Positions 40,102 to 43,324 of a stretch of DNA of 64,000 nt are shown here, piece by piece. A program made the position numbers and the translations under genes. The DNA is from Fictibacillus terranigra. GTDB taxonomy: Bacteria > Bacillota > Bacilli > Bacillales > Fictibacillaceae. Under the pieces are notes generated by a model that saw only the letters and a program-made list of their open reading frames with translations, ran no database searches and was not told the origin of the DNA. The DNA is taken from NCBI RefSeq assembly GCF_030412265.1, contig NZ_JAUHLN010000001.1, forward strand, positions 682,001 to 746,000, given 5' to 3'. The first letter of the stretch is position 1. Every line of letters begins with the position of its first letter.

Positions 40102-40140
40102 CCGAATCGCCAGTGTATGATGGAGCGGTTCGGTTTTTTT
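40102..40140 (+). terminator. Rho-independent terminator of the manganese catalase gene
   Basis: CCGAATCGC/GCGGTTCGG arms (one G-U) and seven T. Confidence 0.9.
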
Positions 40141-40144
40141 GTGG

Positions 40145-40243
40145 TAATTGAGCCATCCGAGTACAGAATTGAGCCACACTCCAGCTAATTGAGCCAAACT
40201 CAGGAAGAATCAGCCTAAATCGAAATAATTGAACCAAACTACT
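40145..40243 (+). repeat. About 21-bp degenerate tandem repeats, locus C (five units)
   Basis: AATTGAGCC(A) cores start at 40146, 40167, 40187, 40208 (degenerate AATCAGCC) and 40227 (AATTGAACC), giving spacings of 21, 20, 21 and 19. Five bases after the catalase terminator T-run. The core differs from loci A and B, but period and position are the same. Confidence 0.75.
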
Positions 40244-40270
40244 TATTCAGAGTATTTCACTCGGAAAACC

Positions 40271-40300
40271 TTGACATCTGTCCTGAAAGTAAGGTAACAT
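40271..40300 (+). promoter_or_regulatory. Promoter of the structured leader RNA
   Basis: TTGACA, 18-base spacer, TAACAT; predicted start near 40307, just before the conserved-looking stem region. Confidence 0.6.
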
Positions 40301-40306
40301 ACTCTC

Positions 40307-40478
40307 AAACTAAAACATCAACAGCGGCAGAGGGAACAACCCGCAAGGTGCAATATGGCATCGCCGGCCTAATGTTCCGCCGTCTCCAAATTGGTGAATT
40401 ACATAGAGCAAGAGCTGACTAGACATCTAGAGGCTCGTTTAAGCAGATCACGTTCTGTTTAAGCGGGCTTTTTATACG
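40307..40478 (+). ncRNA. Unassigned structured RNA / riboswitch-like leader of a 31-codon ORF
   Basis: A short transcript is delimited by a good promoter and a strong terminator. Pairings visible: CGGC 40325-40328 with GCCG 40379-40382 and GGAACA 40333-40338 with TGTTCC 40373-40378 (outer stem), enclosing CCG/CGG and GGTGC 40347-40351 with GCATC 40358-40362. The 3' part has a 15-bp terminator stem (40433-40447 with 40454-40468, then T5). A competing hairpin GAGC-tga-CTAG-acat-CTAG-ag-GCTC (40412-40436) uses the same GCTC. Mutually exclusive hairpins before a small ORF are the usual riboswitch arrangement. I cannot match it to a known class; it might also act as a free sRNA. Confidence 0.6.
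40433..40473 (+). terminator. Terminator of the structured RNA
   Basis: GCTCGTTTAAGCAGA pairs with TCTGTTTAAGCGGGC over 15 bp allowing G-U, loop TCACGT, then five T. Confidence 0.85.
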
Positions 40479-40502
40479 GGAAAAATAGAGGGAGGAAAGC
40501 GC

Positions 40503-40598
40503 ATGTTCACTTTCTACTGGAGTCTATTGATCTTATTTTGGGTGATCGGACTGTTTATTTGGCATAAAATTTATCCGGATCAAAGAAGAGAGGGATAA
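40503..40598 (+). CDS. 31-residue membrane peptide
   Basis: ATG 40503 is preceded by GGGAGGAAA at good distance. The 31-residue product begins MFTFYWSLLILFWVIGLFIW, a single hydrophobic helix of about 20 residues, followed by a positively charged tail (HKIYPDQRREG), so an N-out/C-in membrane peptide is likely. It lies 30 bases after the terminator of the structured RNA and is probably expressed only by read-through. I recognise no family. Small membrane subunits of transporters or oxidases have this form, but no partner gene is adjacent. Confidence 0.6.
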   Translation: MFTFYWSLLILFWVIGLFIWHKIYPDQRREG

Positions 40599-40634
40599 GT
40601 GAGTAAACTGTCCGTCTGAAACGTAAACATGGAA

Positions 40635-40670: not shown

Positions 40671-41615
40671 TTATTGAAGAACTTTTTTTAGAATGTTAAT
40701 GTTTTTTTCCATGAGGCTGATATAGTCTTGTTTACCTGAAATATCTTTTTGAGAGGGTGACTCCAAGTTATGGAAGGACAGGGCCTCGGCACCCACCTCA
40801 GATTTTACTGTATCGGCTACCCGCGGTTTGACATTGTCTTCAAACAAAACATAGCGGATCTGATGTTTCTTTGAAAGATTAATAATTTGCTGCAGCTGTT
40901 TCTGGGTCGGTTCATTGGACGGAGAAAGTCCGGAAATTGGAATCTGTTTTAATCCATATCGCTTCTCCCAATAACCATAAGCAGCGTGTGAAACAAGGAT
41001 TTCTTTTTTATGGCTGCCTTTCATAAGAGTTTTGAAGTCTTGATCAAGAGCAGCGATCTGAGATTTTAAATCCTCAAAGTTTTTCTCATAGTATTCTTTA
41101 TGAGGAGAATCTTTTTTCACCAATGCATTTTTTATGTTTTCCGCCATTTTTATGGAATGTAATGGATCAATAAACACATGGGGATCAACGTCTCCATGTT
41201 CATGATGCTCCTTTTGGCCTTCATGCTCCTCCTGAGCTTCGGCAAGCGATATCCCTTCTGAGGCTTTAACCACCATCGTTTGATCTTGATTCAATGTGTC
41301 GATGGCTTTGTCAGCAAATCCTTCCAATCCTGCTCCGTTATAGATAAAAATATCACCATCAGTCAGTTTGGACATCGTTTGAATCGTGGGTTCGTAGTCG
41401 TGAGGCTCGATACCTGCAGGTACTACATTTTGCACATTAACATACTTGCCGCCGATCTTTGCTGCAAAATCCTCAAGTGGAAAAATAGTCGTATTGATTT
41501 GTATTTTTTTGTTCTTATGAGCTGCTTCCTCGGCCGAACTGGTCTTGTTTTGGCCGGAACAGGCTGCAAGAATAAAAGAAAGAGCAGTGAACATGGCAAG
41601 CCATTTCATTTTCAT
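40671..41615 (-). CDS. Zinc ABC transporter substrate-binding lipoprotein (ZnuA/AdcA-like)
   Basis: The 314-residue lipoprotein has lipobox LAAC (Cys at residue 19), the cluster A-I metal-binding fold with PAGIEPHDYEPT (first His ligand) and DPHVFIDPLHS, and a His/Glu-rich mobile loop (EEHEGQKEHHEHGD) that marks zinc rather than manganese receptors. It would deliver Zn(II) to an ABC permease; no znuB/znuC genes are in the window, so it is an orphan or extra receptor. ATG 41615 is preferred over TTG 41624 by spacing from GAAAGG. A Zur box lies upstream. Confidence 0.88.
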   Translation of the reverse strand: MKMKWLAMFTALSFILAACSGQNKTSSAEEAAHKNKKIQINTTIFPLEDFAAKIGGKYVNVQNVVPAGIEPHDYEPTIQTMSKLTDGDIFIYNGAGLEGFADKAIDTLNQDQTMVVKASEGISLAEAQEEHEGQKEHHEHGDVDPHVFIDPLHSIKMAENIKNALVKKDSPHKEYYEKNFEDLKSQIAALDQDFKTLMKGSHKKEILVSHAAYGYWEKRYGLKQIPISGLSPSNEPTQKQLQQIINLSKKHQIRYVLFEDNVKPRVADTVKSEVGAEALSFHNLESPSQKDISGKQDYISLMEKNINILKKVLQ

Positions 41616-41654
41616 CGTATTCAACCTTTCAATATAAGATCTTACTGAAATATA

Positions 41655-41669
41655 TCGTAATGGTTACGA
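41655..41669 (-). promoter_or_regulatory. Zur box upstream of the znuA-like gene
   Basis: TCGTAATGGTTACGA, a 7-1-7 near-perfect match to the Zur consensus TCGTAATNATTACGA. Zinc-dependent repression is inferred. Confidence 0.88.
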
Positions 41670-41716
41670 TTTGTAAAGAGTTTTTCCTCATCTTCATCTT
41701 ACAAAAATCGCCATGA

Positions 41717-41745
41717 TTGACAGCCCGATGTATAAGGATTACAAT
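41717..41745 (+). promoter_or_regulatory. Promoter of the rpsN2 gene
   Basis: TTGACA, 17-base spacer, TACAAT; the Zur box begins five bases after the -10. Confidence 0.8.
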
Positions 41746-41750
41746 ACAAA

Positions 41751-41765
41751 ACGTAATAATTACGA
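41751..41765 (+). promoter_or_regulatory. Zur box of rpsN2
   Basis: ACGTAATAATTACGA matches 14 of 15 positions of the Zur consensus and covers the transcription start. Confidence 0.9.
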
Positions 41766-41791
41766 TTTAAGTAAGAAAGGAATGATGGATG

Positions 41792-42061
41792 ATGGCGAAA
41801 AAAGCAATGATCGAACGAGAGTTAAAACGTCAGGCGGTCTTTGAGCGCTATGCTGCCAAAAGAGCAGAATTGAAGGCGAAGGGAGATTATGAAGGTTTGA
41901 GCAAGCTTCCTAGAAACGCGAGTCCAACCAGGCTTCATAATCGATGCAAGGTGACCGGACGGCCGAGGGGAGTCCTTCGCAAGTTTGAGATGTCACGGAT
42001 TGCTTTTCGTGAACTTGCTCATAAAGGCCAAATTCCAGGCGTGAAAAAAGCAAGCTGGTAA
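41792..42061 (+). CDS. rpsN2: Zinc-independent ribosomal protein S14 (alternative form)
   Basis: An 89-residue S14 ([14 protein letters not shown]..., [34 protein letters not shown]) of the long type that lacks the CxxC zinc ribbon of the standard Bacillus S14 (61 residues). Under zinc starvation such paralogues replace the zinc form, freeing zinc and keeping ribosome assembly going; this is well established for B. subtilis RpsNB (YhzA), which is Zur-regulated. Two adjacent ATGs are possible (41789, 41792); the second gives the usual MAKK start. Confidence 0.93.
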
Positions 42062-42063
42062 AA

Positions 42064-42105
42064 AGAGAAAGCTTTCTCTCACAAAACGTGAAGAGAAAGC
42101 TTTTT
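42064..42105 (+). terminator. Rho-independent terminator of rpsN2
   Basis: AAAGCTTTCTCTCAC pairs with GTGAAGAGAAAGCTTTT (small bulge), ending in a T-run. Confidence 0.85.
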
Positions 42106-42146
42106 ACTAATTTGCATTAAGCCCATGTCCTCACCGCCCAAATAAA

Positions 42147-42161
42147 ACGTAATGTTTACGA
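42147..42161 (+). promoter_or_regulatory. Distal Zur box upstream of the COG0523 gene
   Basis: ACGTAATGTTTACGA, 7-1-7 dyad. It lies 185 bases before the start codon. B. subtilis yciC (zagA) also has two separated Zur sites with long-range control, so the arrangement looks parallel. Confidence 0.85.
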
Positions 42162-42275
42162 TTTGAATCTTACCATACTCTTTTAAGAAGTAAAGGGGAC
42201 AGCGAAAATCCTTTTGATGAATAGATAATTTGTTTGTTTTTCTAGGTCTGGACCTGCCATCCATGATAAGATAAA

Positions 42276-42290
42276 ACATAATGATTACGA
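42276..42290 (+). promoter_or_regulatory. Proximal Zur box of the COG0523 gene
   Basis: ACATAATGATTACGA, 42 bases before the ATG at 42332. Confidence 0.8.
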
Positions 42291-42331
42291 TTTATAAAAA
42301 TAACAAGCATTTAATGATAGGAGGGCATCAT

Positions 42332-43324
42332 ATGACACAGTCACAAAAAATACCAACCTACATACTAAGCGGCTTTCTTGGCAGCGGAAAAACAACAGTA
42401 TTGCTCAAGATGCTGTCTGACTTTAAAAAGAGGGGGCTTAAGCCGGGCATCGTTCTTAATGAGCTCGGTCAGGTGAATGTAGAAGGGCATATGTTTAAAG
42501 GTGAAAAGATGCTGGAAATGCTGGACGGCTGTATTTGCTGTACGATACAGGACGATCTTCGCGAGGAGCTTCAGTTCTTTTTACAGGAAGAGAACGCTGT
42601 CGATGTATTACTGATTGAAGGTACAGGAGTGGCAAATCCGAAGGAAATTCTTGAAGCGCTGACCGATCCGCGTCTTCTTGACGGTTTTGAAACACAGTCC
42701 ATCATCAGTCTCGCCGATGCGAGCAAGTTCCTTGAGTATCAAAGCATTTTCTCCAGTTCAAGGGAAATACGGGAGATGCTCAATGAACAGATGACGAGCG
42801 CTACGCTTATTCTTTTAAACAAAATGGACCTTGTCAACGAGAAAATGAAAGAAAAGATCTATAAAAAAATTAGCAAGCTATTAAAAGCAGATGTTGAAAT
42901 CATAGAAACGGTCTATGGTGAAGTGGAGCTGGAGGAGCTGTTGAAGAAACGGATGAGCACGATTGCCGTCTCCCTTGGGGATGGAATGGAAGAAACCGGC
43001 CATTCGCATCACAATCATGAACACCACCACCACGAGCACCCTTTTAAAGCGTTTAAAATAGAAGATTTTCCTGCGGTCGAGCGGATCCGCTTTGAAAAAT
43101 GGCTGAAAAAGCTGCCTGGAAGTGTGCTGCGCGGAAAAGGAATGGTATCGCTGGCTTCTCCCTCTGGTCTCTATCAATTTCAATTCGCATCGAAAGAACT
43201 GGAGATAGAACGGATGGAAGACCAGACCTGCCGGACATGCCTGATTTTGATCGGTTATAACATGCCGATTGAGGAAATTCGAACTTCCTTTCAGCAGGAG
43301 GTTCTGCAGACATATAAAGTGTAG
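42332..43324 (+). CDS. COG0523/CobW-type zinc metallochaperone GTPase (YciC/ZagA-like)
   Basis: The 330-residue GTPase has a P-loop GFLGSGKTT (residues 14-22), the metal motif CICC (67-70) that defines zinc-handling COG0523 proteins, the NKMD guanine motif (LLNKMDL), a histidine-rich loop (GHSHHNHEHHHHEHP, about residue 220-235) and the C-terminal CobW domain. B. subtilis ZagA delivers zinc to proteins such as FolE under zinc limitation. ATG 42332 follows ATAGGAGGG; the frame opens 17 codons earlier inside the Zur box. It completes a Zur-controlled island with the znuA-like and S14 genes. Confidence 0.92.
   Translation: MTQSQKIPTYILSGFLGSGKTTVLLKMLSDFKKRGLKPGIVLNELGQVNVEGHMFKGEKMLEMLDGCICCTIQDDLREELQFFLQEENAVDVLLIEGTGVANPKEILEALTDPRLLDGFETQSIISLADASKFLEYQSIFSSSREIREMLNEQMTSATLILLNKMDLVNEKMKEKIYKKISKLLKADVEIIETVYGEVELEELLKKRMSTIAVSLGDGMEETGHSHHNHEHHHHEHPFKAFKIEDFPAVERIRFEKWLKKLPGSVLRGKGMVSLASPSGLYQFQFASKELEIERMEDQTCRTCLILIGYNMPIEEIRTSFQQEVLQTYKV

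Follow-up and report, generated by a model that had tools for sequence, protein, structure and literature searches.

A leader hairpin overlapping an intrinsic terminator recurs before sulfur genes in the Caryophanales and may be the surviving half of a tandem leader in Fictibacillus terranigra

A small hairpin sharing sequence with the 5' arm of an intrinsic terminator recurs before sulfur genes in the order Caryophanales, with two-sided changes in its apical stem, and one copy lies upstream of a 31-codon reading frame in Fictibacillus terranigra. From this pattern we infer a response to sulfur, a trans-acting factor and a direction of control. The reading that we prefer, and hold with somewhat better than even confidence, is that the F. 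terranigra leader once held two tandem elements, that an S-box has decayed, and that a sulfur-linked hairpin attenuator, in which a factor-stabilised hairpin prevents termination, is intact. A broader claim, for which we see even chances, is that the element, present in 23 families or more, is a so far undescribed attenuator responsive to sulfur, working beside the S-box and CymR on cysH, ssu and related operons through an RNA-binding antiterminator.

The window is the whole stretch of 64,000 nucleotides that was analysed, on contig C8 of the 4.97-Mb F. terranigra genome. NCBI places Fictibacillus in the Caryophanales, an order with the older name Bacillales, and 397 genomes of this order served for the order-wide search. 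DNA searches at the genus level covered seven Fictibacillus genomes and located the orthologous locus in two of them, G004 and G005. The region of interest is best explained as a leader and the first gene of a small transcription unit, with the features listed in Table 1.

Table 1. Features of the leader and first gene in the window
Feature	Position	Strand	Basis or remark
Promoter TTGACA-18-TAACAT	40271..40300	+	10/12 consensus matches; TTGACA and 5' flank identical in G004 and G005
Probable decayed S-box (SAM-I) riboswitch with remnant of its own terminator	40310..40398	+	Place of complete S-box and terminator 1 in G004; partial alignment
Antiterminator-type hairpin, core GCUGACUAGACAUCUAGAGGC at 40414-40434	40412..40436	+	Fold, core pattern, covariation
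Intrinsic terminator, arms 40431-40447 / 40454-40470, U run 40469-40473	40431..40473	+	5' arm common to hairpin
Ribosome binding site GGGAGGAAAG	40490..40499	+	GGGAGG kept in G004 and G005; G005 without one following A
31-codon ORF, membrane peptide MFTFYWSLLILFWVIGLFIWHKIYPDQRREG	40503..40598	+	

The leader in F. terranigra

The original prediction had described a promoter, a compact aptamer-like part, a hairpin competing with a terminator, and a micro-ORF with a strong ribosome binding site. Its promoter is present as a promoter-like site, though shuffles of the 1101-base region yield 1.8 sites of this quality on average, and the micro-ORF and its ribosome binding site were likewise found (Table 1). 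Upstream of the promoter, at 40140-40262, lie degenerate repeats of ATTGAGCCAAACTC; this stretch has four matches in the window genome (G000), itself included, seven in G004 and eight in G005, and none in G001, G002 or G006. On the other side, at 40671-43324, are a znuA-type gene (minus strand), rpsN (S14) and a CobW-type GTPase gene, a neighbourhood like that of zinc limitation; in G004 the CobW gene directly follows the peptide gene. A plasmid search gave one unrelated short match, a phage search gave none, and a first search with a 21-nt pattern also returned no matches.

The competing hairpin and terminator both fold better than shuffled sequence. The hairpin segment (40410-40438) reached -11.6 kcal/mol (z -3.2, with 2 of 200 shuffles equally good), and the terminator segment (40431-40478) reached -23.4 kcal/mol (z -7.4, with none of 200). 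As nucleotides 40432-40436 (GGCUC) are common to both, the two structures are mutually exclusive, in keeping with the competition that had been proposed. The terminator had been given 15 base pairs; it is present, but the minimum-energy leader fold gives it 17, and a simple terminator scan of the region did not report it. All 17 pairs are kept in three of three orthologues, with one two-sided and three one-sided pair changes. The covariation among these three sequences, however, stays within chance (171 of 500 shuffles reach the same level). When minimum-energy folds were computed for growing transcripts, the hairpin formed first and was replaced by the terminator at about position 40469. With upstream sequence included, the forced antiterminator differed from the free fold by 1.6 kcal/mol in the window and by 4.4 kcal/mol in G004 and G005; from the core onward, the difference was 3.5 kcal/mol in all three.

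The 5' half of the leader gave a different result. Folded alone, the compact aptamer-like part predicted at 40325-40382 was within chance (z -1.38, with 17 of 200 shuffles equally good). A new riboswitch class with its aptamer there would account for the whole leader (40307-40478) beating its shuffles (z -3.55), but most of that score is due to the terminator, since 40307-40440 alone gave z -1.77. Moreover, S-boxes occupy the orthologous place in both relatives, against which the window aligns with heavy gaps. A similar promoter precedes the S-box (RF00162) in both. That of G004 is complete (71 bits), with P1, its own terminator (CTTCTCCAGATTTGGAGAAGCCTTTTT) and, judged by eye, a possible antiterminator; in G005 the S-box scores 58.6 bits, and P4 and most of the 3' side are deleted. 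We consider a new class scarcely credible, and a novel aptamer at 40325-40382 was rejected on its chance-level fold, on the S-boxes in the orthologues and on its score of 0.5 bits with the genus model described below.

The segment 40310-40398 is instead, on comparison of sequences, probably a remnant of the known SAM-I/S-box class that has decayed in the window species. The window aligns with G004 from the promoter through terminator 2 with large gaps between: P4 and the UAUGAAGCCCG segment are missing from it, P1 has no 3' strand, and terminator 1 has lost its 3' half. Only 1 of 2000 shuffles of window positions 40307-40400 matched the G004 stretch as well as the real sequence did. The strongest local match (AATGTTCCGCCGTCTCCA) falls in the terminator-1 part, and for the aptamer itself the case for descent is therefore one of position and short matches such as AGCGGC-GAGGGA. 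No SAM-I match reached the RF00162 gathering cut-off in the window, and the P1-P4 four-way junction with pseudoknot loop and GAUGAAA-type segment that marks the class was, on alignment with G004, not found there as a whole. A genus S-box model (R1), built from 19 S-boxes (18 of the window genome and the one of G004), gave 51.6-86.6 bits to five held-out S-boxes of the window genome and 61.8 bits to that of G005. At the window place (40327-40351) it gave 0.5 bits, whereas chance matches in the rest of the 441 bases scanned scored as high as 7.4 bits. The window genome carries 23 further S-boxes above cut-off.

The hairpin-terminator across the order

A second covariance model (R2) was built solely from the sequences of the window, G004 and G005; base pairs were specified for the terminator and nowhere else, so that the apical stem was left unpaired. 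It matched 78 of the 397 genomes (E<=0.01); filters were strict, with about 11 candidates scored per genome, and copies may have escaped this count, which also takes in plain terminators. We examined 88 loci (the window, L032, L033, L049 and L146-L229). A pattern that required pairing found the core GC[UC]GA-NNNG-loop-CNNN-AGGC in 70 of them, with GC changed to UC or AC in one locus each. Of these 70 core loci, two are those of G004 and G005 (L032, L033) and the others come from 64 of the 397 genomes; 23 families are represented. The 18 matches without the core were set aside and not accepted as copies of the element, because R2 also matches ordinary terminators; two of them (L214, L221) look near-core. 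A DNA search with the window's own loop, ACAT, matched a single other genome, as most copies carry ACAA, AAAA or ACAAA loops.

The apical stem, which had no part in the pairing of R2, is consistently paired. With a pattern free of any pairing demand, the core was present in 69 of 96 matches, and all 69 had four apical pairs, in seven stem variants: CUAG/CUAG (57), UUAG/CUAA (6), UCAG/CUGA (2), and CCAG/CUGG, CUGG/CCAG, UUGG/CCAA and CUGG/CUAG once each. For covariation we aligned 56 of the 70 cores, leaving out 14 from close relatives, which gave 48 distinct rows. Paired cells made up 99.4% of this alignment, compared with 15-60% in slid control structures, and two-sided changes occurred in three of the seven pairs. 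Ten two-sided cells were observed versus 0.9 in shuffles, a level that none of 500 shuffles attained; this control leaves relatedness in the data, and close relatives account for many of the matches. One of five measures, the number of further pair types, was within shuffles (322 of 500). Compensatory changes at homologous loci, which the original prediction had named as a check, are found in the apical stem.

Overlap with a terminator is equally regular. In 68 of 70 loci the core's GGC is part of a terminator-like hairpin with T after it; shuffling what follows GGC lowers this to 13 of 70, and by a cruder test the count was 63 of 70. This overlap is partly built into the search, as R2 contains the terminator. 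The free fold was more stable than the forced antiterminator in 64 of the 70 loci, with a median difference of 3.6 kcal/mol and a range of 0 to 13. In the six loci with zero difference, some values arose because the terminator segment ended too early.

An inverted repeat of this kind might also be a DNA operator for a sulfur regulator that coincides with the terminator by accident. Such a site would have the same dyad symmetry and sulfur-gene association, and covarying arms are expected of it too. However, U-G occupies the third pair in 40 of 48 rows (C-G in eight) and one row has a G-U in the apical stem, wobbles that a symmetric DNA site would drop. The almost constant sharing of GGC with the terminator, and the fact that an S-box and yezD can come first, which puts the element hundreds of bases from the transcript start, also count against an operator, which we regard as highly improbable.

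Downstream genes and S-boxes played no part in the search, and yet the copies are strongly associated with sulfur metabolism. Outside the peptide locus there are 67 core loci, of which 51 precede cysH (50 recognised by the motif SFG[AIVL]E[GASI], with L049 and L156 confirmed by Pfam, and L204 by reading) and 13 precede other genes with a proven or likely sulfur link. Downstream of the element we found cysC twice (L163 by Pfam, L196 by likeness) and yezD, encoding a DUF2292 protein, directly adjacent four times (L165 by Pfam, three by likeness). Genes seen at one locus each encode SsuE, SsuA, an ABC permease closest to TauC/SsuC, an ABC ATPase, an enzyme of the OAH-sulfhydrylase type, an apparently CysJ-like protein with a flavodoxin domain, and an NtaA/DmoA-family monooxygenase that lies 469 nt from the element. 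NCBIfam cut-offs were passed by SsuE, SsuA_fam, CysH and NtaA/DmoA, and failed by the ABC permease, the ABC ATPase, OscA and a truncated OAH sulfhydrylase, the last of which passes Pfam. One core locus showed no ORF between the element and the end of its contig. In two families the element is followed directly by the gene for a protein of about 110 residues (L169:795-1133 and L212:638-967) with no Pfam or NCBIfam match.

Distances and accompanying signals follow a common plan. The element mostly lies 50-170 nt from the start codon. A same-strand S-box is found 27-456 nt upstream in 49 of the 70 core loci (47 of 67), from 15 families; the 18 loci without the core yielded no S-box. Short upstream ORFs include a YezD-like one in 40 of 70 loci (phmmer, all E<=3.1e-4). 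A scan of the 100 nt before the core in 17 loci, most of them without an S-box, found a promoter-like site in 14, versus 4.9 in shuffles. In L151, L154 and L193 this site ends 15-30 nt before the core, which leaves no room for another structured domain. Leader-peptide attenuation was also considered, as a frame at 40372 ends in the TAG of the window hairpin; it was rejected because, by eye, this frame is not kept in G004 and G005, and because in some leaders with the element the spacing from a promoter-like site is just 15-30 nt. Mutually exclusive hairpins with regulated termination, as originally proposed from the window, thus gain comparative support from the recurrence of the same covarying pair before sulfur genes in 23 families.

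The peptide and its link to the leader

The window copy has both the core and the GGC within a terminator, but no sulfur-assimilation gene was found downstream of it; an orphan 31-residue membrane peptide is there instead. The peptide is 90% identical to its counterpart in G004 and 87% identical to that in G005, and plain counts of synonymous to non-synonymous codon changes are 9:3 and 12:4, respectively. None of the three small proteins tested, this peptide included, matched a curated family. The statement that it belongs to no family holds to that extent, but relatives do exist: the peptide is 37-58% identical to proteins of about 30 residues encoded just before SSS genes. Such relatives directly precede SSS-like genes in nine of nine loci read (L063-L065 and L101-L106, with Pfam SSF in five), a count that leaves out L066 and the weak matches L067-L069. 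In L063-L065 the small membrane protein gene stands behind what looks like an acyl-CoA synthetase gene. The resemblance to these small proteins stops at the peptide, as no symporter adjoins it in the window.

Loss of the S-box raises the question of whether the whole leader is a relic, its hairpin-terminator left from a duplicated cysH-type leader and now regulating nothing. The window has lost its S-box and G005 keeps a truncated one, the peptide is not followed by a symporter (the protein of the window genome nearest to the L065 symporter is 26% identical), and the cassette is missing in G001 and G002, where znuA directly follows the catalase gene. Decay without function is difficult to reconcile with the 37 nt across the hairpin and 5' terminator arm that are all identical between the window and G004, given that 69 of 117 four-fold degenerate sites (59%) differ in the nearby catalase gene. 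This gene also has one 35-nt coding run identical to G004, the next longest being 15. The 9:3 ratio of synonymous to non-synonymous changes in the peptide, and the conservation of promoter and ribosome binding site, further argue against a relic, which we consider unlikely. In G005 the catalase match (L075) covers residues 48-296 and contains a TAA, and the gene may therefore be degrading.

A second question is whether the peptide has anything to do with the hairpin-terminator. A scan between terminator and ORF in the window found no promoter, from which we infer that the peptide depends on read-through. In G004 (L032:1690-2030) and G005, a high-copy repeat of about 300-340 nt that is absent from the window separates the terminator from the peptide. 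With at most 40 candidates scored per genome, the repeat had 43 matches in G004, 53 in G005, 59 in G001, 53 in G002 and 11 in G000. This insertion weakens the link between element and peptide in G004 and G005 and is the main difficulty for read-through. It would suit a trans-acting small RNA of about 165 nt that starts at the 40271 promoter and has the hairpin-terminator as its 3' end, with the peptide unrelated; so would the strong conservation of the hairpin-terminator and the strong terminator in which the conserved piece ends. Elsewhere, however, the element is placed directly before sulfur genes at distances typical of a cis-acting leader, and in the window the ORF has changed mostly synonymously, yet no promoter of its own was seen after the terminator. 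We think a small RNA quite unlikely and retain the attenuator as the preferred reading.

Proposed mechanism and relation to known systems

The attenuator that we propose would consist of a hairpin of 21-22 nt and a terminator, with the hairpin's 3' GGC serving also as the base of the terminator's 5' arm. By default the terminator, predicted to be the more stable state in most folds, would end transcription. Under sulfur limitation, a trans-acting factor would bind the hairpin with its near-invariant GA/A internal loop; the bound hairpin would withhold the GGC from the terminator, and RNA polymerase would read on. The window copy would in this way gate a 31-residue membrane peptide of the kind that elsewhere accompanies SSS symporters. 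Switching appears to need such a putative factor, given the greater stability of the free fold in 64 of 70 loci. The factor is most likely an RNA-binding protein rather than a metabolite, since 21-22 nt is too small for a typical aptamer and since some copies follow a promoter-like site by 15-65 nt. GC, GA, A and GGC are near-invariant, which together with the A-rich loop suggests a sequence-specific binder and not recognition of a bare stem. One speculative candidate, on gene neighbourhood only, is the YezD/OscA-like small protein (DUF2292). YezD scored 39.7 bits against the NCBIfam family 'sulfur starvation response protein OscA', under the cut-off of 85, and a search by sequence gave no convincing solved relative (best E 0.79).

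The RAT hairpins of BglG/SacY/LicT antitermination are also small, contain an internal loop and overlap the 5' arm of an intrinsic terminator, and their leaders may hold nothing else. The element appears to resemble them in being a small internal-loop hairpin that overlaps a terminator 5' arm, but differs in its sequence and in its gene set (sulfur, not sugars), and the antiterminator protein is only putative here. The S-box (RF00162), from which the 5' half of the window leader appears to descend, is commonly found upstream of the element; the element is separate, lies further downstream and is also present in leaders without an S-box in the stretch examined. The PyrR binding site (RF00515) is another leader hairpin with terminator attenuation, but it had no matches at the element, and its two weak matches (E 1.5 and 3.3) overlap the S-box; we therefore rejected a PyrR site. 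A published account of Bacillus methanolicus (PMC4342826) has '(SAM)-(PyrR)' labels, and these may arise from PyrR matches to the S-box.

Searches with Rfam 15 agree with this separation. At the gathering score no family matched in the window, and none matched at the element in 12 loci. At E<=10, the only matches in window positions 40240-40600 were CopA (E 2.1) and PCA3_2 (E 5.2), and among 20 loci there were lone chance-level overlaps with unrelated families (L203, 3.8; on the opposite strand L169, 1.8, and L222, 3.2). Calling the RNA unassigned is thus apt for the hairpin-terminator half, which is outside Rfam 15 beyond chance, but not for the 5' half, the apparent S-box remnant. No description of the element was found among the open-licence papers listed on the element, on cysH leaders, on YezD, on S-box decay and on symporter peptides, and we provisionally regard it as undescribed so far.

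In Bacillus-like bacteria, CymR, OAS/CysL and the S-box are credited with the control of cysteine synthesis. Control of cysH in B. subtilis was reportedly treated by Mansilla et al. in 2000. If our reading is true, a layer of control before cysH and other sulfur genes has been overlooked, and it points to a putative RNA-binding regulator. In Fictibacillus, where the S-box appears to be decaying and the attenuator is kept, the two elements would be naturally separated, and the attenuator's own role should therefore be directly testable.
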